From assembly GCF_030845175.1 (NCBI RefSeq), contig NZ_CP132542.1, positions 2,887,501-2,951,500 of the forward strand: a DNA stretch of 64,000 bases, in the 5' to 3' direction. The position numbers and the translations under genes are program-made. This DNA comes from Coralliovum pocilloporae. GTDB taxonomy: Bacteria; Pseudomonadota; Alphaproteobacteria; Rhizobiales; Cohaesibacteraceae. The notes beneath the pieces are model-generated. The model had not been told where the DNA came from. It saw only the letters and a list, made by a program, of their open reading frames with translations, and searched no databases. This document shows positions 45,402 through 57,932 of this stretch, one piece after another (the stretch's first letter is position 1; every line of letters begins with the position of its first letter).

Positions 45402-46187
45402 CTATGCACAGGCGGCAGCGCTTGTCGGGCTGACATGTGTCGGGGTATTGGTCGTGCCTGTTGAGCATTTTGATACATTGGAAATGAAGCAATATCCAAT
45501 ACCATGTATCGTCTTGATATAAATGGGTTCTGCAGGGTCCGGCTCGATTTTCTTGCGCAACCGCATGATATGAACATCGACGGTGCGGTCGCCCACATAG
45601 CACTCTCGGCCACGGGCTATATCGAGAAGCTGGTTACGGGAAAGAACCGCGTGAGGGTGCCGGACGAGCGCGTGCAGCAGTTCAAACTCTGTTGTGGTCA
45701 GCGGCATGTCTTCATTGTCTGCAACCGCGCGCAGGGTCCGGTCCTGAAGATTCATCTCCCAGTCACCGAACTGGAGCAGCGTCGCGTCTGTCTCAATCTG
45801 GCGAACGGCCAGTGCTTCCACCTTGCAGCGTCTGAGAATGGTCTTGATCCGGGCCAGAAGCTCTCGGGCCTCGAACGGTTTCACCACATAGTCATCGGCG
45901 CCGAATTCCAGTCCGATGACCCGGTCAAACGGATCGTCACGGCCGCTCAGAACAATAATCGGCAGGTTGGAATTGACGCGGAGATCCCGGGTGATTTCAA
46001 ACCCGTCACGGTCCGGCAGATTGATGTCGAGAATGCAGAGATCAATTGCCTCGTTTTTCAGAATGCTATCCATCTCGGCACCGGTTGCGGCACACGAAAC
46101 CTGATAGTGCTGTTTTTCAAGATAACGCTTTAGAAAGTCTGTGATTTGCGGGTCGTCATCAACAACGAGAATATGGTCGGCAGACAT
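45402..46187 (-). CDS. OmpR-family response regulator
   Basis: 261 residues from the ATG at 46187, preceded by GGAGAG. The receiver has ILVVDDDPQIT with the acceptor Asp in CILDINLPDRDG and Lys in YVVKPF. The winged helix has LTTTEFELLHALVRHPHAVLSRNQLLD and VDVHIMRLRKKIEPDP. About 25 Ser/Thr-rich residues follow the usual end at GIGYCFI, an odd tail. It diverges from the hybrid kinase and lies just upstream of the molybdoenzyme operon, so it may regulate it. Confidence 0.88.
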   Translation of the reverse strand: MSADHILVVDDDPQITDFLKRYLEKQHYQVSCAATGAEMDSILKNEAIDLCILDINLPDRDGFEITRDLRVNSNLPIIVLSGRDDPFDRVIGLEFGADDYVVKPFEARELLARIKTILRRCKVEALAVRQIETDATLLQFGDWEMNLQDRTLRAVADNEDMPLTTTEFELLHALVRHPHAVLSRNQLLDIARGRECYVGDRTVDVHIMRLRKKIEPDPAEPIYIKTIHGIGYCFISNVSKCSTGTTNTPTHVSPTSAAACA

Positions 46188-46319
46188 TGGGGCTCTCCTC
46201 ACAATCCCGGAAACCACGTGGGGCCAGTGATGGTATCTCGGGAATGTTCAGACCCTAAACCCACGAGAAAATACGGACATTGACCTGAATCAACAGCAGA
46301 CCAATCCAAGTCTGGCAGT

Positions 46320-48611
46320 ATGCGGTTTTATACGGATAGCGCGGACAGGTGGAGTGGCGGCGTGACAACAACTGAGAGCGAGAGTGAAGCGGCGCGGTGG
46401 AGCACGCATATCCGGCCTATCGGTTTTCTTGTGGCAGTCCTGCTTTTGGCCATCGTGGCGGCTTCGGTCTTCCTGGGCAGTGAAACAAGCCGCCGTTTCA
46501 ATGACATGAAAACCAGCTGGATAGGCTATGCGGATGAAGCCGGACGCAAAAGCGTCTGGATCAGCGATATCCGAGGCCATTTCGGTTATGGCGGCATGAT
46601 CCACAATTTCAAGAACTATGTTCTGAGACAGGATCCGGCCTATCGCTCCACCATGAAGCGGGATTTCGCCAATCTCTACAGGACGATTGATGCATATGCG
46701 AGTAGCAACCCGACCGAGCGCGAGCGGGTGGCACTCTTTGCCATTCGTGACGTGGCCCGGGTTTACGAACGTCAGATCGACCGGATCGACAGCGGTATCA
46801 GTCGACAACTGGATGCAGAAGCCATTGATGCCCATGTCCGGGTTGATGACACAGAAGCGCTTGCGGCGCTGAAAGAGCTGGAACTGATCTGGCAGGAACA
46901 GAACGCTTCCCATGTTTCGCGAGTGGTGGGGGCAATCTCCGAAGGCGAACAGCTCACAGGCTGGGTCATCCTCGTGGTGACAGGAATGGCGGCTCTGGTG
47001 CTGATCATCTTCGGTCTTCTGCATCAACTTGTCCGGCATTCGCTGGATGCGACCCATCAATTGTTCCGGGAATTGTTTGAACGCAAGCGGGCCCAGGACG
47101 CCGAGAAAAAACTGGCCCGCGCCGTAGAGCAAAGCCCGAGCACGATCATCATTACAGATGTGAACGGGCGGATTGAGTTTGTGAACCGGAAGTTCGCCGA
47201 GCTGACGGGCTTTGGACCTCAAGAGGCAATTGGCAAGAGGCCGAATCTGCTCAAATCCGGTCACACCACGAATGAGGCCTATCGGCAGATGTGGGAGATG
47301 TTGAAGGCGGGCCGGGAATGGCGCGGTATCTTCAAGAACAGAAAGCGTGATGGTAGCCATTACTGGGCCTCCACCGCCATTCTGCCGCTGCTGGATGATG
47401 AAGGCGCAATCACCAATTTCATCGGTATCGGTGAGGATATCACTGAGAAAAAGATGGTGAAGGAACAGATAGCCCGTGCCCAGAAGATGGAAGCCGTGGG
47501 AGTGCTTGCAGGTGGCGTCGCCCATGATTTCAACAATGTGTTGATGGCAATCACCGGTAATGTGCAGCTGGCCCGCATGGGCGTTGAAGATGGAGACAGC
47601 CCGGCTGAAATCGACGAATCCCTCGGCCATATTGATCTCGCGGCTCGCCGGGCCCAGGGGCTGGTGCGGCAATTGCTGGCGTTTGCCCGCCGACAGCCCA
47701 CACGGTCGCGCCCCATTGATCTGCATGATCATCTGGAAGCCACCATCAAGCTGCTGCGGGCGGCCATCCCCACAAACATTGCACTGTCCGTGGCAGGAAG
47801 CGCACCAGGGCTTGTCGTGGAAGCTGATCCAACCGTGATGGACCAGATCATCATGAATCTCTGTCGCAATGCGGCCGAGGCGTTTGGTGGCAAAGCGGGC
47901 AATATCCGGCTCAGCCTTTCTGTTGCCGAGGCCGGGTCTAAAGAGGCTTCCGAGCTTCTGCCGAGCTGTGAAGGAAATGTGGTCAGGCTCATCGTGGCCG
48001 ATGATGGCCCCGGCATGCCTGAGCCGGTCCGTCAGCGGGTGTTTGATCCGTTCTATTCCACCAAGCCAATTGGCAAGGGCACGGGGCTTGGGCTTGCGGT
48101 TGTCAAAAATGCGATGGATGACCTTGGCGGTGCCATCGCGCTTGAAACCGAGCCGGGTGAGGGCACGCGCTTTACGCTGGCTTTCCCGCTCATCCATGGT
48201 GAAGTCCCGGAAAGAATGGCCCCTGCAGAGCTGCCTCGCGGTCATGAGGCGATCCTGCTTGTTGATGATGAAGAAGATGTTCTCTTCACCCTGCGGCGCA
48301 TGCTGACCCGGCTTGGATACCGCATAGATGCATACTCCGATCCGCTTCTGGCCCGCCAGGCTTTCGAGGCTGATCCAGGACGGTTCGACATCCTTGTTAC
48401 AGACATGATGATGCCGAATATGAATGGAACAGAGCTGATCGAAGTTCTGCGTCAGATCAGGCCGGACCTGCCGGTGCTGCTGTGCAGTGCCTACCACACT
48501 GAGCAGGGTGACATGGAGAGCGAACGAATCTGGCGGGTTGAGAAACCGGTCGATATGGCCGGGCTGTCAGAGGTGCTCCGCCAGATGATCACGTCCGGGA
48601 ACACTCGATAG
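46320..48611 (+). CDS. PAS-containing hybrid sensor histidine kinase
   Basis: 763 residues. Membrane segments are at about residues 37-57 and 215-237 with a periplasmic domain between. A PAS domain (NGRIEFVNRKFAELTGFGPQ) is followed by HisKA with GGVAHDFNNVLMAI, the ATPase domain with DDGPGMPEPVRQ, and a C-terminal receiver (ILLVDDEEDVLFTLRRM, acceptor Asp in ILVTDMMMPNMNG). It lies between a divergent response regulator and the iodate-reductase-like operon 200 bases downstream. Sensing of an electron acceptor or redox state is an inference from position. Confidence 0.88.
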   Translation: MRFYTDSADRWSGGVTTTESESEAARWSTHIRPIGFLVAVLLLAIVAASVFLGSETSRRFNDMKTSWIGYADEAGRKSVWISDIRGHFGYGGMIHNFKNYVLRQDPAYRSTMKRDFANLYRTIDAYASSNPTERERVALFAIRDVARVYERQIDRIDSGISRQLDAEAIDAHVRVDDTEALAALKELELIWQEQNASHVSRVVGAISEGEQLTGWVILVVTGMAALVLIIFGLLHQLVRHSLDATHQLFRELFERKRAQDAEKKLARAVEQSPSTIIITDVNGRIEFVNRKFAELTGFGPQEAIGKRPNLLKSGHTTNEAYRQMWEMLKAGREWRGIFKNRKRDGSHYWASTAILPLLDDEGAITNFIGIGEDITEKKMVKEQIARAQKMEAVGVLAGGVAHDFNNVLMAITGNVQLARMGVEDGDSPAEIDESLGHIDLAARRAQGLVRQLLAFARRQPTRSRPIDLHDHLEATIKLLRAAIPTNIALSVAGSAPGLVVEADPTVMDQIIMNLCRNAAEAFGGKAGNIRLSLSVAEAGSKEASELLPSCEGNVVRLIVADDGPGMPEPVRQRVFDPFYSTKPIGKGTGLGLAVVKNAMDDLGGAIALETEPGEGTRFTLAFPLIHGEVPERMAPAELPRGHEAILLVDDEEDVLFTLRRMLTRLGYRIDAYSDPLLARQAFEADPGRFDILVTDMMMPNMNGTELIEVLRQIRPDLPVLLCSAYHTEQGDMESERIWRVEKPVDMAGLSEVLRQMITSGNTR

Positions 48612-48782: not shown

Positions 48783-48810
48783 GCCGGTCTGATCCAAGAG
48801 GATGTTTTCA

Positions 48811-49926
48811 ATGACACCAAGAAAAACTGGACGGATCAGTCTTCTTGCAGCGGTCTCCGCAGCGGCTCTCATGGGCATGGCTGTCGTTTCCACTGCGCAG
48901 GCAGATGATCCGGGCCCGATCTCCCCGCTGGAGGTCGATGCCAAAAAAGCGGAATTGGGAAAACGACTGTTCTTCGATCCACGCCTGTCCGGCGACGGAG
49001 AACTGTCCTGCTCAAGTTGTCACCAGCCGGAAAAAGGCTTTACCGACGGTCAGGCATTGTCTGACGCCTATGCCGGTTCGCTCGGCTTCCGTAACGTGCC
49101 AACCCTGATCAACACCGCGATGCGTGAAGCCTGGTTCCATGACGGACGTTTGGGCACCAACCTGAACGACGTGACGCGTGAATCGATCACCGAGACCTAC
49201 AACATGAACATGGACATGCGTCTGATGCAGGAGCGTCTGAAGCAGGATCCGGTTTATGTGAAGATGTTCAAGGAAGCCGGTTACGGCGAGCCGTCCAACG
49301 GTTCTGTCCGCAAGGCCATTCCGGAATATCTGAAAACGCTGACGTCTCGTGGCGCACCGTTCGACAAGGGCGAAATGTCCGAAGCGGCACAGGCCGGGTA
49401 TGAGCTCTTCAAGGGCAAGGCCGGCTGTGTCCAGTGTCACTCCGGCAACCGTTTCACCGACGATCAGCCGCATAATATAGGCACCCCGGAAAATCCTGAA
49501 ATCTTCAAGGACCCACTGCGGCACATCACATATGTGACCTTCACCAAGTTCCTTGGTGTTGAGAACTACATGAACCTGCGCCGTGACGTTGGTGCCTATG
49601 TGCGTGCGCATCCGTCCGACAGATCCACGGTCGGAAGCTTCATGACGCCAACTCTGCGCGAGCTGAAGCAGACAGGTCCGTACATGCACAACGGCATGTT
49701 CAACACCCTGTTCGAGGTTGTGGCCTTCTACAATCAGGGCGGTGGTGAAGACCCGAACAAGGATCCTCTGATCCAGCCGCTGGGCCTGACATTCGAGGAA
49801 GAGAAAAATCTCGTCGCATTCCTTGAAGCTCTGTCCGGTGATGTGCTGACCGGTCCGGAATTCGTCCCTGACGAAATCGACACCGACTATCAGCCGATCG
49901 CCAACTGGCGCAAAACCCCGAACTAG
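48811..49926 (+). CDS. idrP1: Di-haem cytochrome c peroxidase-like protein (IdrP type)
   Basis: 371 residues from the ATG at 48811, nine bases after AGAGG; the ATG at 48802 overlaps the ribosome site. Signal peptide MGMAVVSTAQA. Two haem c motifs, CSSCH (residues 67-71) and CVQCH (206-210), and the conserved YMHNGMFNTLFEVVAFYNQGGG are as in the CcpA/MauG family. First gene of an operon that ends at 57932. In iodate-reducing Pseudomonas and Denitromonas, two such proteins (IdrP1 and IdrP2) accompany the Mo enzyme and are proposed to remove peroxide. Which of the two this is cannot be decided, so the number is provisional. Confidence 0.8.
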   Translation: MTPRKTGRISLLAAVSAAALMGMAVVSTAQADDPGPISPLEVDAKKAELGKRLFFDPRLSGDGELSCSSCHQPEKGFTDGQALSDAYAGSLGFRNVPTLINTAMREAWFHDGRLGTNLNDVTRESITETYNMNMDMRLMQERLKQDPVYVKMFKEAGYGEPSNGSVRKAIPEYLKTLTSRGAPFDKGEMSEAAQAGYELFKGKAGCVQCHSGNRFTDDQPHNIGTPENPEIFKDPLRHITYVTFTKFLGVENYMNLRRDVGAYVRAHPSDRSTVGSFMTPTLRELKQTGPYMHNGMFNTLFEVVAFYNQGGGEDPNKDPLIQPLGLTFEEEKNLVAFLEALSGDVLTGPEFVPDEIDTDYQPIANWRKTPN

Positions 49927-49937
49927 GAGGCAAGACA

Positions 49938-51143
49938 ATGACACGTGAACTGTCACGACTTTTGAGCACGATTGCCTCCGCTGCTGTTATCACAGCACTT
50001 GGGGCAGGGACGATGACGCTCACCGCTCAGCCGTCAAATGCGGCTGAAAGCCTGAAAATCGAATCCGCCATCAAAGGCGGTGATCCGGATGTGGATCCGG
50101 CACTGGAAGCCCTCGGCCCACCGCCGATCCCGGCTGACAACCCCCAGACGCCCGAAAAGATCGAGCTTGGCAAAAAGCTGTTCTTTGATCCGCGTCTTGG
50201 CGGTAATCCGTCCACACCATGTTCTGCCTGTCACCTGCCATCTGTTGGCTGGGATGTGGAAGACAAGGTCTCGTTCGGTTATCCGGGCACCGTTCACTGG
50301 CGCAACAGCCAGACCATCGTCAACTCCGCTTACTATGGCAAACTGTTCTGGGCAGGCTCTTCGAAGTCTCTTGAATCCCAGGCCAAGTCTGCTGCAGGCG
50401 GCGCGGTTGCCGGTAACGGTGAAGCCGATATGATGGAAGCACGCTTGGCGTTTGTTCCGGAATATCGTGAAGCCTTCAACAAGGTCTTCGGCGATCAGTG
50501 GCCGAAAATCGGCAATGCATGGCGCGCTATTGCAGCCTTCGAGCGGACCATCGTCCAGACGGATACTCCGTTCGACAATTATCTGCGTGGCGACAAGAAT
50601 GCCCTGACAGCAAGCCAGAAGCGCGGTCTTGAACTGTTCCGCGGCAAGGCAGGCTGCATCGAGTGCCACAACGGTGCGCTTCTCTCTGACGAGAAGTACT
50701 ACAACACCGGTGTTCCGCCACTTGATCAGTGGAATGATGATGGCCTGAAACAGGTGACATTCCGCTACGAGCTTTATGCCAAGGGCTCAACGGAGAAGAT
50801 GTACCGGCATACGAAAGATGATCCGGGCTTCTACTTCCGGTCCAAGGAAAAAGCCGACAAGGGCAAATTCCGCACACCATCCCTGCGCTACACCCTCTAC
50901 ACCGAGCCTTACATGCACAACGGCATGCTGGCGACGCTTGAGGATGTTGTCGAGTTCTACAACCAGGGCGGTGGCACAAACGAGTTCGCCAAGAACAAGA
51001 CCAAGCTTATCAAGCCTCTCGGCCTGAAGAAGAAGGAAAAAGCTGATCTGGTGAACTTCCTCAAATCTCTGTCCGGCCCGGAAATCCTGATGGATGAACC
51101 GGAACTGCCTGACTACGCCCCGCTTCCTGACGCGGCGAACTAG
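49938..51143 (+). CDS. idrP2: Di-haem cytochrome c peroxidase-like protein (second IdrP)
   Basis: 401 residues, 11 bases after the previous stop and preceded by GGAGG. Signal peptide ends near QPSNAAE. Haem motifs are CSACH and CIECH, with EPYMHNGMLATLEDVVEFYNQGGG toward the C-terminus. It is clearly paralogous to the preceding gene but diverged, so the two are not interchangeable duplicates. Periplasmic, taking electrons from a c-type cytochrome or cupredoxin; the pseudoazurin at 57468 is a candidate donor. Confidence 0.8.
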   Translation: MTRELSRLLSTIASAAVITALGAGTMTLTAQPSNAAESLKIESAIKGGDPDVDPALEALGPPPIPADNPQTPEKIELGKKLFFDPRLGGNPSTPCSACHLPSVGWDVEDKVSFGYPGTVHWRNSQTIVNSAYYGKLFWAGSSKSLESQAKSAAGGAVAGNGEADMMEARLAFVPEYREAFNKVFGDQWPKIGNAWRAIAAFERTIVQTDTPFDNYLRGDKNALTASQKRGLELFRGKAGCIECHNGALLSDEKYYNTGVPPLDQWNDDGLKQVTFRYELYAKGSTEKMYRHTKDDPGFYFRSKEKADKGKFRTPSLRYTLYTEPYMHNGMLATLEDVVEFYNQGGGTNEFAKNKTKLIKPLGLKKKEKADLVNFLKSLSGPEILMDEPELPDYAPLPDAAN

Positions 51144-51156
51144 AGAGGGACCCCCA

Positions 51157-51726
51157 ATGACAAACGCAAAGTCCCATAAGTGCAGCTGTACGGGCAATGC
51201 CAAGAAGGCCTGCACCATCAACCGCCGACAGTTCCTGTTTGCATCAGGCGCGACCGCTTTCACCGTCATGGTGACAGTGCCGACCGCCGACGGCAAAGCG
51301 GAGCAGGTTCCGGCTCTCGTCTCCACCTATCCACGCAAGAAGATCGCCAAACTGTCCGATCTGAAGCAGGACGTTCCGGTTGAATTCGAATATCCGGACG
51401 AAGGTGACTACGCAGCCTCCATGCTGGTGAAGACCGGCGTTGAGTGCGGCGGTGGTATCGGCAAGGACAAGGACATCGTGGCCTTTAACCTGACCTGTAC
51501 CCACCAGGGTGGCGATCTGACGGATACCTATGTGGCTGAACACAAGGCCCTCGGCCCCTGTCCGCTGCATCTGTCGACCTATGATCTGACCCGCCACGGC
51601 ATTCTGATCTCCGGCCAGGCTTACCAGTCTCTGCCGCAGGTGCTGCTGGAGCTGGATGGCGACGATATCTACGCCGTCGGCATGTTCGGGCTGATCTACG
51701 GCCGCTACGACAACCTGATTTCGTAA
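51157..51726 (+). CDS. idrB: Rieske small subunit of arsenite-oxidase-family enzyme (IdrB type), Tat-exported
   Basis: 189 residues from the ATG at 51157. The Tat signal NRRQFLFASGATAFTVMV starts near residue 22, after a Cys/Lys-rich tip. The Rieske [2Fe-2S] ligands are CTHQGG and CPLH, 18 residues between His and the next Cys. It pairs with the next gene, which has no signal of its own and would be carried through Tat with it, as in AioBA. Electron flow runs between the periplasmic carrier and the Mo subunit. Confidence 0.88.
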   Translation: MTNAKSHKCSCTGNAKKACTINRRQFLFASGATAFTVMVTVPTADGKAEQVPALVSTYPRKKIAKLSDLKQDVPVEFEYPDEGDYAASMLVKTGVECGGGIGKDKDIVAFNLTCTHQGGDLTDTYVAEHKALGPCPLHLSTYDLTRHGILISGQAYQSLPQVLLELDGDDIYAVGMFGLIYGRYDNLIS

Positions 51727-51739
51727 AGGAGGAACGATC

Positions 51740-54421
51740 ATGGCTACTCCATACTACGTTCCTGAGACCAACGTTCCGCTTCCCCCCAAGGGCGCCGACG
51801 TTATCTCAACAGCGTGTGACTACTGTATTGTCGCTTGCGGCTACAAGGTCTACCGCTGGCCGGTCACGGCCAAGCCGGGTGGTCCATCTGCAGATGAAAA
51901 CGCATTCGGTGAAGATTTCCCGGTCGCGCCACTGGGTGCCTGGGTTGCTCCCAACCAGCACAACATCGTGCTGCACAAGGGCAAGCCACACCATGTGGTG
52001 ATCATTCCGGACAAGGATGCGAAACACGTCAACACCGATGGTGACAGCTCCCTGCGTGGCGGCTGTATCGCTCAGAAGTGTTACAATCCGCAGACCCCGA
52101 CTCGTGACCGCCTGAAAACACCACTGATGCGTATCTATGGTACGCTGATGCCGGTTCCGTGGGATCTGGCGCTGGATGTGGCGGCAGAAGTCGGTAATCA
52201 CGTCATCAAGAAACACGGCACCAATGCCTATGGCGTGAAGACCTTCTCCTACCAGTATATCGAGAACACCTATGCGATCTCGAAATACGCGCTCCGTCAC
52301 GTCAACACGGCCAACTTCACGTTCCACGACACACCGTCTGACGTGACATCCACACCGGGTTTCCGGGATGCCGGTTTCGACAATTTCGGTCCTGCCTATG
52401 AAGACTGGATGAATGCGGAAACGCTTCTGGTCTGCGGTACCGACCCGTATGAAACCAAAACCATCCTCTACACCCAGTGGATGATGAAGGGCATGCAGAA
52501 CGGTCAGAAAGAGATCTATCTCATTCCGCGTCGTTCCGCAGGTGTTGCATATGCCGAGAAAATGGGCGGCCTGCACATCGACATCACCCCGGGTACTGAC
52601 CTTCTGGTCGTCAACGCAATCGCTCGCGTGATTGTCGAGAACGGCTGGGAAGATAGCGACTGGATCCAGAAATGGGTCAACAACAAGTGGGAAAGCTCTT
52701 CAGGCTTCGGCCAGGGCACCCGCAACACGCCATGGCAGTGGCGGACAACCTGGGGCAAATTCCAGACCAAAGGCTTTGAGGACTGGAAGGAATGGCTCCT
52801 GTCGCAGGACGAGTTCAAGCCTGAAAATGCAGCAGAAATCGCTGAGATCGACGTTCAGAAGATCTACACCGCTGCTGAATGGATGGCCAAGCCGAAAGCT
52901 GATGGAACCCGTCCGAAGACATCTGTGATGATCGAAAAGGGCTTCTACTGGTCAAACAATACCGGTAACACCCAGGCGATTTCCGCTCTCGGTATCATCG
53001 TCGGTGCCGGTGGACGTCCGGGTCAGGTTATTGGTCGTGCCGGTGGTCACCAGCGTGGTGGCGTCAAGGGCGGCAAATATCCGCGCAACAAGTCGCCGGA
53101 GAAAGTCCCTGGTCGTCGTCGTCGCGCCATGGATACGGACCGTTACCTGATTTCAGGTCACACACGGTTCGCCCATGTGATCGGCACCACCTGGATCCAG
53201 TCCATGTGCGGCAGCCAGCAGCTTGCTGACAAGTTTGAGCAGCTGACGGTTCAGAACCCGCATCAGGTCCGGTCGTTCGACAAGAAAGACATTGTCGATA
53301 CGCTCAAGGCTCGTGCGGACAGCGGTGGCATGGTCGTCATCAACCAGGATATCTACCTGCAGGATCCGATTGGTAACCGCTATGCGGATATCATCTTCCC
53401 GGCAGCGACCTGGGGTGAGGAAGACTTCCTCCGTGCCAATGGTGAGCGTCGCGTCCGTCTGTATCAGAAGTTCTATGATGCACCGGGTGCTGCGAAACCG
53501 GACTGGTGGATTATCGCCAACCTCGCCAAGCGTATGGGCTTTGACGGCTTCGATTGGGAAAACTCCAACGAAGTGGCTGAAGAGGCCGTCCGCTTCACCC
53601 GCGGCAGCCGCAAGGACTTCTTCGTCCTGAAGAAACTGGCACAGCAGGAAGGCAAGACACTTCATGCCAAGATCCGTGAATTCGGAACAGACGGCATTCA
53701 GTGCCCGGCCATGCTCGGAGATGACGGCAAGACCATCATCGAATCCAAGCGCCTGCATGACACGACCCGTGTTCTGCCGGTCAATGGGGCCGCAGGTGTC
53801 AACGTCATCGGCAAGAAAGCCACGCACTTCAACAGCCAGACCGGCAAGTGCAACATCCAGAAATCACCATGGAGCCTGTTCTCCGATTACTGGGCATGGC
53901 TGAAGCCGAAGAAAGACGAAGGCGAGCTGTGGTGCACATCTGGTCGTATCAATGAGCGCTGGCAGTCCGGTTTCGATGACCGCCGTCGTCCGTATATCGT
54001 CCAGCGCTGGCCGGAAAACTGGGTGGAAATCCATCCCGATGATGCCAAGGAACGCGGAATTGAATCCGGTGACTATGTCATGGTCTATTCCGAGCGTGTT
54101 CCAGGGCAGAAAAACACCATTATTGGTGTTGAGGGTGATGACTTCCAGTTCTCCAAGCTGATGGAAAACGGTCACATTGAAACCACGAAAGCTGCCATCA
54201 CCGCAGTGGCCATGGTGACAACAGCGATCAAGAAGAACGTTATCTATATGGACTTCCTGCACATGCAGCAGCCCGCTAACGCTCTTGAAGGTCGTGTGGT
54301 CGACTGGATCTCCGGCAACTACAACTACAAGATGGGCGTTGCCAAGATCCGGAAGCTCGGACCGTCTCCTTACAAGACATCGTTCCGCACCATGTCATTT
54401 GCTCCGCGCGATATCGCATAG
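51740..54421 (+). CDS. idrA: Molybdopterin large subunit, iodate reductase/arsenite oxidase family
   Basis: 893 residues, 13 bases after the Rieske stop. Close to the N-terminus CDYCIVAC gives the three Cys of a [3Fe-4S] cluster, as in AioA. RGGCIAQKCYNP follows at about residue 107. Aspects of the arsenite pocket differ: the segment after FHDTPSDV lacks the His and Glu I expect from AioA, while the RAGGHQ motif near residue 433 keeps Arg and His. The partner genes (two di-haem peroxidases, Rieske) are those of idrABP1P2, not of aio operons, which carry aioXSR and cytochrome c instead. Iodate is therefore the best guess; arsenite or another oxyanion remains possible. Length exceeds the roughly 825 residues of AioA. 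Confidence 0.75.
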   Translation: MATPYYVPETNVPLPPKGADVISTACDYCIVACGYKVYRWPVTAKPGGPSADENAFGEDFPVAPLGAWVAPNQHNIVLHKGKPHHVVIIPDKDAKHVNTDGDSSLRGGCIAQKCYNPQTPTRDRLKTPLMRIYGTLMPVPWDLALDVAAEVGNHVIKKHGTNAYGVKTFSYQYIENTYAISKYALRHVNTANFTFHDTPSDVTSTPGFRDAGFDNFGPAYEDWMNAETLLVCGTDPYETKTILYTQWMMKGMQNGQKEIYLIPRRSAGVAYAEKMGGLHIDITPGTDLLVVNAIARVIVENGWEDSDWIQKWVNNKWESSSGFGQGTRNTPWQWRTTWGKFQTKGFEDWKEWLLSQDEFKPENAAEIAEIDVQKIYTAAEWMAKPKADGTRPKTSVMIEKGFYWSNNTGNTQAISALGIIVGAGGRPGQVIGRAGGHQRGGVKGGKYPRNKSPEKVPGRRRRAMDTDRYLISGHTRFAHVIGTTWIQSMCGSQQLADKFEQLTVQNPHQVRSFDKKDIVDTLKARADSGGMVVINQDIYLQDPIGNRYADIIFPAATWGEEDFLRANGERRVRLYQKFYDAPGAAKPDWWIIANLAKRMGFDGFDWENSNEVAEEAVRFTRGSRKDFFVLKKLAQQEGKTLHAKIREFGTDGIQCPAMLGDDGKTIIESKRLHDTTRVLPVNGAAGVNVIGKKATHFNSQTGKCNIQKSPWSLFSDYWAWLKPKKDEGELWCTSGRINERWQSGFDDRRRPYIVQRWPENWVEIHPDDAKERGIESGDYVMVYSERVPGQKNTIIGVEGDDFQFSKLMENGHIETTKAAITAVAMVTTAIKKNVIYMDFLHMQQPANALEGRVVDWISGNYNYKMGVAKIRKLGPSPYKTSFRTMSFAPRDIA

Positions 54422-54515
54422 AGCAAGGAACGACACCGAAATTGGGGCTGGCTGATTGCCATGTTTGCCAGCCTCAGCACCGGGTTTGCTCAGTCATACG
54501 GCCGACCCGGACTGG

Positions 54516-54548
54516 CGGGAGCCTCTCAAATTGGGGGAGGGGCTCCCG
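54516..54548 (+). terminator. Hairpin between idrA and the HEAT-repeat gene
   Basis: CGGGAGCC at 54516-54523 pairs with GGCTCCCG at 54541-54548. It lies 95 bases after the idrA stop, separating catalytic genes from the accessory genes. Confidence 0.6.
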
Positions 54549-54595
54549 TCCCCCCAATCCCCATATCCCCCAAGCAAAAACATGGCAGGTTTATC

Positions 54596-56851
54596 ATGAG
54601 TGTTTCAGAAACTGGCAAAACCCCGTTCGGCCTTGATGATGCCAAAGCGGTTTTCCGTACTCTTGTCTCCAGTGACTACGATATCGTCCGCTTGAAAGCG
54701 GTCCAGGCGCTGCACCAGGTGCAGGCGACGGACAGTGCGGATTGTCTGGTGGAAGCTCTGAGAGATGATGATGAAGACGTCCGGATTGATGCGGTCAGCG
54801 CTCTTGCTGACCTTGGCGATGAGGCTGTTATTCCGGCCTTGCTTGAAAATCTGGTTTACGACCCCTGTGGTGAGGTGAAGCTGGCCTGCGTCAAGGCTCT
54901 TGGCAAGCTCGGCGGTCGCGATGCTATTCCCTATCTCAGAAAGCTTGTCACCTCCCGCAGTGATGATGATGAGATGATCTGGGATGAGGATGAAGCCTAT
55001 CAGACGGAATGGGATGACTGGCTGGATATCCAGATTGCCGCTATTGAAACCCTTGGCCGATTTGGTGATGAAGAAGCCGTTGAGCCGATTGTCCTGGCGG
55101 TCAATGATGACGAGGCGCAGGATCTGGGGCCGGTGGCCATGGAAGCTCTGGGCCGGATTGGTGATGCAGCACTGCCGTCTCTTGGCATGTTCATGAACTC
55201 GACCCGCCGCAGGCTCCGCTATCAGGCAACCCGTGCCGTTGCGGGCCTGGACGGTGAAAAGGCCGAAGCCCTGCTGAACCGTGCACTGGACGACAAGGAC
55301 GCGTCTATCCGTCTGGTCGCCTTTGAAACGCTGCTTGATCGGGACGCAAGCCTTGACCTGTTCGAGCGTGCTCTGGGTGATGCCCATGAAGATATCCGCA
55401 TTGCGGCTTTTGCCCGGCTTGATCTGGCGGAGGAAGCCCTGCTGAACCGGGTTCTGAATGACCCGAGCCCCGTCGTCCAGCTTTCCCTCATCAACCGGAT
55501 CGACCCCACAGAATCTTGCGAGAGGCGGGATGACACGCGGTTCCGGACCCTTGAGCTTCTGTCCCGCTCCGGCAATGGCGAAGTGGCTGCCACAGCCTTT
55601 GGCCGACTGGCGGCCATTGCAACGCCGCTTGTGAAGAATGAATTGATTGACCTCTTCGGTGATCGGGAAGACAAGCCCGATGATCTGGAGCGTCGCCAGT
55701 GGGCTGCCGTGGACGGGCTTGCCGCCTCTGCAAATCCGGACGCTATGGAATGGCTGCAGAAGGCCTGCCGGTCTGAGTTTCGTGCGGTTCGTCTGAAAGC
55801 GCTTACCGCTGTTGGTGTCTGCCTTGAACGTGGCGACAAGACACTGGTTGCCCGTCAGCAGGCCAGCGAGATTGTGCTCAGTCTGGCGCTACCGGCACCT
55901 GCCGCTGATCCGGGCGATGAAGACGCGGATATCGGGGAGCAGGAAGCTGTCAAGGATGACCGGCATGCACTGAAGGCGGCAGGGCTTGATATTGGTGACG
56001 GCGATGCCGATGCAGAGCAGGGCCCGACGTCAAGCCTTGGCGCTATTCTGGGCCATGAGGAAATCGCCGAGGAACTGGTGGAAGAGGCAGCGGCTGATAA
56101 TTCGGCGACCATCCTGTCTCCCAACGAGGAAATCCTGCTGAACCGGGCGCGCCGCAACATCTCCCGCCGCAAAGTGGCTCTGGATGCAGATGCGGCTTCG
56201 CTTGATCAGGAAACACAGCTGACGGCAATCCAGCTTCTGGGAACCTTGCCGGACTGGCAGGGCAATCTGCTGTCTCTTGCAACAGAGACGGATGTAGATC
56301 GCGCAACGGCTGCTCTGGATGGCTTGTTGAGGTCGATTGACCGCTTTGGTCTGAAGGCTGGCGAAGATGCTCTCGCCGATGTCATTCCGAACCTGATTGT
56401 GGCAACGGATGCCGGTATCAGATTGCGGGCCGTCCGTCTGACAGCTTTCCTTCCCCTTGATAAGGCCTCTGACATCCTGCTGGCTGTGCTCGGCGATGAA
56501 GATGCCAATGTTCGGGCAGAAGCAATCCGGCTCCTCGGTGGAATGACGGTAACGGCAGAGGCTGTCACACCTCTCTTAGGCGACAGCTCTTCTCTGGTTC
56601 GCCAACAGGCCATGCGGACTCTTTGTGTGGTTGATCCCGCTCAGGCCCGCGACCATTTGCTCTCTTTCCTTCTGGACAATCCCGAGCAATCCTTGACGGC
56701 CTATATGCCTGACGACAGCAGTGCAGCACCGGTGATCGGAGCGCATATTGCTGACCGTCTGGCCAATGACAATGAACGTGCGACCTGGCCTGTGCTCCTC
56801 CCGGCTCTGGCCAGTCTGTATCAGACTAATGGATTGGCGGTGGCGTCATGA
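54596..56851 (+). CDS. HEAT-repeat protein of the molybdoenzyme operon
   Basis: 751 residues from the ATG at 54596; longer in-frame starts lie in the hairpin region. Many HEAT/PBS-lyase-like repeats are visible, for example LVEALRDDDEDVRIDAVSAL, VKLACVKALGKLGGRDAIPYL and VLGDEDANVRAEAIRLLGGM. It is strongly acidic and has no signal peptide, so it is a cytoplasmic scaffold. The stop overlaps the nitroreductase start. I infer a maturation or cofactor-insertion role for the Mo subunit, because no TorD-type chaperone is in the operon; this is not established. Confidence 0.8.
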   Translation: MSVSETGKTPFGLDDAKAVFRTLVSSDYDIVRLKAVQALHQVQATDSADCLVEALRDDDEDVRIDAVSALADLGDEAVIPALLENLVYDPCGEVKLACVKALGKLGGRDAIPYLRKLVTSRSDDDEMIWDEDEAYQTEWDDWLDIQIAAIETLGRFGDEEAVEPIVLAVNDDEAQDLGPVAMEALGRIGDAALPSLGMFMNSTRRRLRYQATRAVAGLDGEKAEALLNRALDDKDASIRLVAFETLLDRDASLDLFERALGDAHEDIRIAAFARLDLAEEALLNRVLNDPSPVVQLSLINRIDPTESCERRDDTRFRTLELLSRSGNGEVAATAFGRLAAIATPLVKNELIDLFGDREDKPDDLERRQWAAVDGLAASANPDAMEWLQKACRSEFRAVRLKALTAVGVCLERGDKTLVARQQASEIVLSLALPAPAADPGDEDADIGEQEAVKDDRHALKAAGLDIGDGDADAEQGPTSSLGAILGHEEIAEELVEEAAADNSATILSPNEEILLNRARRNISRRKVALDADAASLDQETQLTAIQLLGTLPDWQGNLLSLATETDVDRATAALDGLLRSIDRFGLKAGEDALADVIPNLIVATDAGIRLRAVRLTAFLPLDKASDILLAVLGDEDANVRAEAIRLLGGMTVTAEAVTPLLGDSSSLVRQQAMRTLCVVDPAQARDHLLSFLLDNPEQSLTAYMPDDSSAAPVIGAHIADRLANDNERATWPVLLPALASLYQTNGLAVAS

Positions 56852-57471
56852 TAAGCCCGGCAACCTATGATTCCTATGACGACGACTATGCGGATATCGT
56901 CACAGAGACGATTCTGTCCCGTCATTCTGTCTCCCCGAAGGTTCTGGAAGCACCAGGGCCTTCAACGGATCAGCTCCGGACCATGATCAAGGCGGCGGCT
57001 TCCGCTCCTGATCACGGTCTGATCCGCCCGTGGCGCTTCATCGATTTTCCGGGGCGGTCCCGGAAAATGCTGGCGGATGTGTTCGAACGGGCTCTGCTTG
57101 AGCGGTTCTCGGACGCAGATGATGAAGACCGCAGGCGGGCCCGCGAAAAAGCGGCACGCGCACCCACGTTGCTGGGGCTTGTGGCCCAGATTGCTGAAGA
57201 TGAGATGCGCGTGACCCGCGATGACCAGATCGCGTCCTGCGGTGCTGCGCTTCAGAATATTCTGCTGACGGCCCATGCCATGGGCTATGGCGCACGCGCC
57301 ATGAGTGGCCGGGCCGTGAGAACGGAATCGTTCCGTTCTGCTATCGGTCTGGCAGATAATGAAGAATTCCTTTGTTTTATCGCCATGGGCACGCCGTCAC
57401 GATGCGGTCGCGAGCGACAGAGACCTGAGCCGGAAACCATTTTGAGTGTCTGGGAAGGCTGGAGCCAATGA
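56848..57471 (+). CDS. Nitroreductase-fold flavoprotein of the molybdoenzyme operon
   Basis: 207 residues. The nitroreductase fold is recognised from LSRHSVSPKVLEAPGPS, AAASAPDHGLIRPWRF (the RPWRF FMN phosphate region), SCGAALQNILLTAHAMGYGA and CFIAMGTPSR. It should bind FMN and use NAD(P)H. Start and stop overlap the neighbouring genes. A nitroreductase-like protein (AioE) also occurs in arsenite oxidase operons, as I recall. A role in repair or maturation of the Mo enzyme is possible. Confidence 0.85.
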   Translation: MISPATYDSYDDDYADIVTETILSRHSVSPKVLEAPGPSTDQLRTMIKAAASAPDHGLIRPWRFIDFPGRSRKMLADVFERALLERFSDADDEDRRRAREKAARAPTLLGLVAQIAEDEMRVTRDDQIASCGAALQNILLTAHAMGYGARAMSGRAVRTESFRSAIGLADNEEFLCFIAMGTPSRCGRERQRPEPETILSVWEGWSQ

Positions 57472-57932
57472 TCAAAACCACATTATCGGCCCTTTGTGTC
57501 GCGCTGAGCCTTGGGCTTGGCGCGGCTTTCGCTGCTGAACCGCAGCATGAAGTCAAACAGGTCATCGATCTTCAGGCAACATCAAGCCTGCATGCGTTCC
57601 GGTTTGAACCAAGCTATCTCAGGATTGCCAAAGGTGAGGTGGTCCGCTTCACAGGTTCAACCGGCAGACATACGGTGTCTTCCATTCCGGGCATGATCCC
57701 GGACGGGGCAAAGCCGTTTGAAATCCGTGGCAAGCCGGTGATGGATCTGGCCTTTGATGTGGAAGGTGTCTATGGCGTCCGCTGCCGCGTCCATGGCCGC
57801 CATGGCATGGTCATGCTGCTGGTGGTCGGTGAGGATCGCGCCAATCTGCCTACCGCACGTGAGCGGGTGAAACGGGTCAAGCCAGCGGAGCAGGTGCAGT
57901 TTATCGACCTGTTCAAGAAACTGGACGAGTAA
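57468..57932 (+). CDS. Pseudoazurin-like cupredoxin
   Basis: 154 residues with signal peptide LGLGAAFAAEP. The type 1 copper ligands fit pseudoazurin: His in GRHTVSS and Cys-x2-His-x4-Met in GVRCRVHGRHGM. The N-terminal strand HAFRFEPSYLRIAKGEVVRF is typical. Placed last in the operon, it is the likely periplasmic electron donor to the Rieske/Mo enzyme and the peroxidases. It could equally accept electrons if the enzyme ran as an oxidase. Confidence 0.87.
   Translation: MIKTTLSALCVALSLGLGAAFAAEPQHEVKQVIDLQATSSLHAFRFEPSYLRIAKGEVVRFTGSTGRHTVSSIPGMIPDGAKPFEIRGKPVMDLAFDVEGVYGVRCRVHGRHGMVMLLVVGEDRANLPTARERVKRVKPAEQVQFIDLFKKLDE

Follow-up and report, generated by a model that had tools for sequence, protein, structure and literature searches.

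Bacterial iodate reduction supplies iodide to surface seawater and thereby affects atmospheric ozone chemistry. The genes for iodate reductase (Idr) are arranged as idrP2, idrP1, idrB and idrA in Ca. M. iodofontis, and likewise in Pseudomonas SCT and Denitromonas IR-12, an order that seems characteristic of iodate reductases (PMC10989891); the two peroxidase genes always precede idrAB (PMC8801600). Alphaproteobacterial carriers of idr are known, and three of them reduce iodate under oxygen limitation (PMC11445184). The motifs CX2CX3CX70S in IdrA and CXHX18CX2H in IdrB were described for Azoarcus DN11 (PMC10149662). Here, a 64,000-nt window of contig NZ_CP132542.1 from Coralliovum pocilloporae was analyzed, and all coordinates below are window positions. 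It carries what is very probably an iodate reductase operon of the known Idr type, acting in the periplasm of a Cohaesibacteraceae (Hyphomicrobiales) host and followed by a gene for a HEAT-repeat protein that proved to be closely linked to idrA.

Four open reading frames on the plus strand, adjacent, codirectional and separated by gaps of 11-13 bases, are read as a single operon, idrP2-idrP1-idrB-idrA. IdrP2 (48802..49926, 374 amino acids) and IdrP1 (49938..51143, 401 amino acids) are the first and the second di-haem protein of the cytochrome c peroxidase (CCP)/MauG family, each with a Sec signal and two CXXCH motifs (Pfam CCP_MauG, E 1.3e-39 and 1e-41, respectively); the two names were assigned by adjacency from the published order. 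IdrB (51157..51726, 189 amino acids) is a Rieske [2Fe-2S] protein with the twin-arginine translocation (Tat) signal NRRQFLF and a TIGR02694 score of 113 bits (cut-off 95.65), its start being taken as the Met before the Tat motif while the mechanical open reading frame begins at 51094. IdrA (51740..54421, 893 amino acids) is the catalytic subunit with the molybdenum (Mo) bis-molybdopterin guanine dinucleotide cofactor, matched by PF18465 and, above its cut-off, by TIGR02693. A preceding sequence-only reading of this DNA had recognized the four adjacent, codirectional genes and their families, which the open reading frames and domain matches bear out; it placed the start at 48811, where the first gene has its second ATG, and the cluster it described is larger, as three further codirectional genes 3' of idrA extend it to 57932.

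The assignment of the cluster to the iodate reductase type, which that reading had drawn from an idrABP1P2-like gene content, has good support from clade placement, active-site residues, the Rieske spacing and synteny. A maximum-likelihood tree built on 97 large subunits puts the window protein beside those of Cohaesibacter and Ruegeria within the IdrA clade (support of 100 in the Shimodaira-Hasegawa-like approximate likelihood ratio test, SH-aLRT), and 14 AioA rows, among them NT-26, Thermus HB8 and Acidiphilium, make up a clade of their own (support 100), so that the phylogenetic comparison suggested by the sequence-only reading places the subunit with IdrA and outside AioA; the long branches meet near the base, and no exact root between IdrA and AioA is claimed. 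Four substrate-site positions of AioA bind arsenite in the A. faecalis structure. Of these, the Glu (NT-26 E207; A. faecalis E203) is Ser204 in the window IdrA; in the alignment it is present in 13/13 AioA and 1/83 IdrA, with Ser in 77/83 IdrA, while the His, Arg and His are retained in all AioA and IdrA aligned. In addition, AioA Glu453 (NT-26 numbering) corresponds to Arg439, and Arg occupies this position in 81 of the 83 IdrA. The [3Fe-4S] motif of the window IdrA reads C26-x2-C29-x3-C33-x70-S104, and no signal peptide is apparent by eye. The Rieske motif of IdrB is CxH-x18-CxxH, whereas the AioB proteins examined have x13 or x15. Among solved structures none of an Idr enzyme was found, that of NT-26 AioA being the nearest, and no second AioA/IdrA was found in the host genome.

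If the cluster encoded an arsenite oxidase (AioAB), with the two peroxidase genes alongside, this would explain why both subunits exceed the cut-offs of TIGR02693 and TIGR02694 and why the pseudoazurin and nitroreductase genes at the end of the cluster resemble neighbours of aio clusters. Nevertheless, the large subunit lies outside the AioA clade with the AioA substrate-site Glu replaced, it is only ~30% identical to plasmid-borne AioA, its residues and the IdrB spacing are those of Idr, and neither ars genes nor aioX were among the flanking genes examined. Arsenite oxidation is thus rejected as highly improbable on clade placement and substrate-site residues, and the NCBIfam name 'arsenate reductase (azurin)', given to both subunits, would mislabel the present cluster. 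Some points do weigh against a secure iodate reductase assignment. The iodate-reducing activity of the window cluster is inferred from its genes, and verified IdrA proteins of SCT, IR-12, DN11 and R. azorensis are represented in the tree by proxies, namely Thalassovita taeanensis, an Aliiroseovarius and an Azonexus plasmid whose gene neighbourhood resembles that of SCT. Furthermore, IdrA-like proteins of Azonexus and Thiothrix plasmids (L035, L036) have Asp at the position of the marine IdrA Ser and the AioA Glu, so that Ser and Asp mark two IdrA subtypes, which may differ kinetically. The same Ser/Asp difference, together with the finding of no report on the substrate range of alphaproteobacterial Idr in the papers examined, could be taken to mean that another oxyanion (e.g. 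bromate, chlorate or selenate) is the in vivo substrate and iodate an incidental one. This is improbable, given iodate reduction in R. azorensis and relatives and an idr transcription response to 0.1 uM iodate (PMC11445184).

The sequence-only reading had regarded the peroxidases-first order as unusual and, together with the alphaproteobacterial host, as the sign of a separate lineage; neither view could be upheld. The name idrABP1P2 gives a naming order and not the gene order, P-P-B-A being the published order of transcription. In a survey of the 80 best named genome loci, P-P-B-A was found on one strand in 72, the other eight being interrupted by contig ends, and the same order was seen on the annotated Azonexus plasmid and in Thalassovita taeanensis (L075), presumably a synonym of 'Litorimicrobium taeanense'. 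The latter is a listed candidate iodate reducer (PMC8692401). The order was therefore rejected as a lineage marker for being universal, and the host class is covered by the published iodate-reducing carriers mentioned above. The window cluster is an ordinary iodate reductase operon whose order and host class were already known; it extends the alphaproteobacterial idr carriers by a genome from the Cohaesibacteraceae. Its IdrA is 90% identical to those of two Cohaesibacter metagenome-assembled genomes of the same family (G016/L043 and G018/L044) and 91% identical to that of Ruegeria arenilitoris. Full-length IdrA was found in 4/20 Cohaesibacteraceae genomes, host included; beyond the family, the closest IdrA comes from Ruegeria, which belongs to another order. 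Such a distribution is consistent with horizontal transfer, which has been published for idr. The window has no tRNA genes and only a slightly raised G+C over the cluster, so that no sharp boundary of an island was seen.

The new detail is the idr-linked HEAT gene, an undescribed companion of essentially every alphaproteobacterial copy examined. In the window it lies on the plus strand at 54596..56851, with a second in-frame ATG at 54461 (Pfam HEAT_2, 7.9e-44). A profile search found the gene on the same strand directly 3' of idrA in 52 of 53 named alphaproteobacterial loci, two of which are titled only 'Proteobacteria' and were placed by the tree among alphaproteobacterial rows; the sole exception (L088) is a sequence that ends at idrA. 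Among 26 host-related genomes, relatives occur only beside idrA or on short contigs of idr-positive fragmented assemblies, apart from one weak, unrelated match. When 387 genomes were sampled from the class (profile at E <= 1e-30), the family was present in 12/14 idr-positive and 0/373 idr-negative genomes (Fisher p ~5e-21, a statistic that ignores shared ancestry). The two idr-positive misses are G167, where a more diverged HEAT gene lies directly 3' of idrA, and G108, whose sequence breaks off within idrA; G302 has the gene ~13.5 kb away from idrA. A phylum-wide sample gave one further strong match, also 3' of idrA, and one weak match to an unrelated HEAT protein. Seven gammaproteobacterial loci have the gene nearby, mostly divergent and upstream. 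No mention of HEAT repeats with iodate reductase was found in the main text of the idr papers examined. The gene provides a second idr marker, and a more selective one than the generic models for arsenite oxidase.

The HEAT protein shows no signal peptide and is hence taken as cytoplasmic. The family changes fast, with 22-45% identity against 67-90% for IdrA among comparable lineages, but W129, W139, W142, D144, Q146 and a PxSTLxAI motif are conserved, the first five in a signature W129...W139DDWxDxQ146. In an AlphaFold2 model (mean predicted local distance difference test score, pLDDT, of 82.9), two alpha-solenoids are joined by a disordered linker, in which the PxSTLxAI motif is located. A dedicated chaperone in the cytoplasm, established for TorD, DmsD and NarJ, is a common requirement of Tat-exported enzymes that carry a Mo cofactor, and no gene for a chaperone of this kind was recognized in idr neighbourhoods. 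IdrA, having no signal peptide, is presumed to be exported together with the Tat-targeted IdrB (PMC8692401). Because a cytoplasmic protein is tied to idrA where no chaperone gene is recognized, the HEAT protein is our best candidate for a dedicated cytoplasmic maturation factor of IdrA and, if this is true, offers a testable answer to how this Mo enzyme is assembled.

The same protein could instead be a regulator or scaffold, for example in two-component signalling, since HEAT solenoids are generic binding scaffolds, a Foldseek search with the model returned only generic ones (karyopherins, PP2A, SF3b), and a two-component system is often encoded near the gene. We hold this to be a real but somewhat doubtful alternative: the HEAT gene is found as well at idr loci that have different two-component neighbours or none, so that its linkage follows idrA and not the kinase. 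A maturation role has to accommodate the lack of a HEAT gene near the Azonexus cluster and at most gammaproteobacterial loci; the gene is thus not universally required, and lineages such as that of Azonexus must manage differently. As a separate observation, in L081 (12696 to the end) and similar uncultured alphaproteobacterial idr loci, genes that encode a secreted protein (~260 amino acids), a large membrane protein and a di-haem cytochrome c come after the HEAT gene, which suggests another electron supply module.

The predicted haem ligands of IdrP1 and IdrP2 call into question the accepted role of these proteins as ordinary cytochrome c peroxidases. Tyr310 of IdrP2 and Tyr341 of IdrP1 align with the Met ligand of the electron-accepting haem in classical bacterial cytochrome c peroxidases, and Tyr is found at this predicted 6-coordinate haem ligand position in 77/78 IdrP2 and 81/81 IdrP1 orthologues. 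A classical bacterial enzyme was rejected for both proteins for want of the Met. MauG and BthA likewise have Tyr as the 6-coordinate haem ligand, which suggests MauG/BthA-like haem sites as far as aligned residues can tell. The closest solved relative of IdrP1 is 6e1c, a 'di-heme enzyme'. The MauG and MbnH models TIGR03791 and TIGR04039 were not passed (200 of 443.85 and 223 of 362.85 bits, respectively), no mau or mbn genes were recognized nearby, and nothing relevant on MauG with iodate was found in the main text of the papers searched. BthA forms a bis-Fe(IV) state yet reduces H2O2 (PMC6405878). With a Tyr ligand, the published H2O2 removal is still possible, but by MauG/BthA-like chemistry. 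We tentatively propose, as a reading slightly less likely than not, that the HEAT protein is an undescribed, dedicated fifth Idr component in Alphaproteobacteria, a cytoplasmic assembly factor required for making and exporting active IdrAB and unrelated in type to the TorD/NarJ chaperones, and that IdrP1 and IdrP2 are MauG/BthA-like, Tyr-ligated di-haem enzymes and not classical peroxidases.

The operon is preceded by a regulatory pair. A putative iodate-responsive, OmpR-type response regulator (45402..46217, minus strand, divergent from the operon; Pfam Response_reg and Trans_reg_C) has orthologues of 40-73% identity at other alphaproteobacterial idr loci, and a membrane hybrid PAS sensor histidine kinase directly 5' of the operon (46320..48611, plus strand; Pfam PAS/HisKA/HATPase/RR) has orthologues of 41-50% identity over ~720 amino acids upstream of idrP2 in many of them. 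The spacer between idrA and the HEAT gene (54425..54595, plus strand) contains three predicted hairpins, one of 14 pairs, whose stability is not above composition expectation (z = -1.49 versus shuffles); they possibly act in attenuation or mRNA processing. The HEAT gene is followed on the plus strand by genes for a nitroreductase-family flavoprotein (56848..57471; Pfam Nitroreductase, 1.1e-21) and a pseudoazurin-like cupredoxin with a Sec signal (57468..57932; TIGR02375, 73.5 bits, below the cut-off of 109.85), each in a 4-base overlap with its upstream neighbour. The nitroreductase is 57-59% identical to Cohaesibacteraceae idr neighbours, and 42-43% identical to proteins encoded behind aioBA on two plasmids (L119, 6495-7082; L122, 6832-7512). 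The cupredoxin, in which the Cu-ligand motif C-x2-H-x4-M can be read, is a plausible electron donor to IdrB; homologues of it occur at the idr loci of Ruegeria, Labrenzia and Vibrio.

A route from quinol to iodide can be sketched from these parts. The host genome encodes a bc1 Rieske protein and a nap nitrate reductase cluster. Electrons from quinol would pass through the bc1 complex to the cupredoxin or a c-type cytochrome, then to IdrB and IdrA, which would reduce iodate at the Mo site, probably to hypoiodous acid (HIO). No chlorite dismutase (Cld) was found in the host genome, and the Cld step proposed for SCT was accordingly rejected; this favours an abiotic disproportionation of HIO into iodide and iodate, the route put forward for Denitromonas (PMC8692401). 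IdrP1 and IdrP2 would clear peroxide or other oxidants arising on the way. IdrA is probably exported with IdrB after cytoplasmic folding and cofactor insertion, the HEAT protein being a candidate for the assembly step, and the two-component system probably induces the operon in response to iodate, low oxygen or both.

In comparison with described systems, aioBA of NT-26 and Thermus HB8 shares the fold, cofactors, B-A order and TIGR models with the window cluster, but differs in its substrate-site Glu, a Rieske spacing of x13-x15, a separate clade and the lack of peroxidase genes. Another locus (L031, G057:C228, 6785-16452) encodes an enzyme of the IdrA/AioA kind that shares 46% identity with IdrA, has an IdrB-type Rieske spacing of x18 and lacks peroxidase genes, and whose large subunit branches between AioA and IdrA on a long branch; its neighbours are an ECF (extracytoplasmic function) sigma/anti-sigma pair, a di-haem cytochrome c and cbb3-type oxidase subunits, and the enzyme may be oxidase-coupled. 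The iodate reduction island idrABP1P2 of SCT, IR-12 and DN11 has the same content and transcription order, P2-P1-B-A, as the window, with the same CX2CX3CX70S motif, a Tat Rieske protein with CXHX18CX2H and two Sec di-haem proteins. Its neighbours are a Sigma-54 regulator/kinase, c551 and moaA, instead of which the window has the OmpR-type regulator and hybrid kinase, the HEAT protein, the nitroreductase and the pseudoazurin. Marine alphaproteobacterial idr clusters are known from Roseovarius azorensis, Notoacmeibacter marinus and Aliiroseovarius sediminilitoris, and marine loci of the class in Ruegeria, Thalassovita, Labrenzia and Cohaesibacter share the clade, the gene order and the HEAT gene 3' of idrA with the window, the nitroreductase gene having been seen only at Cohaesibacteraceae idr loci and pseudoazurin only at some of the alphaproteobacterial ones.

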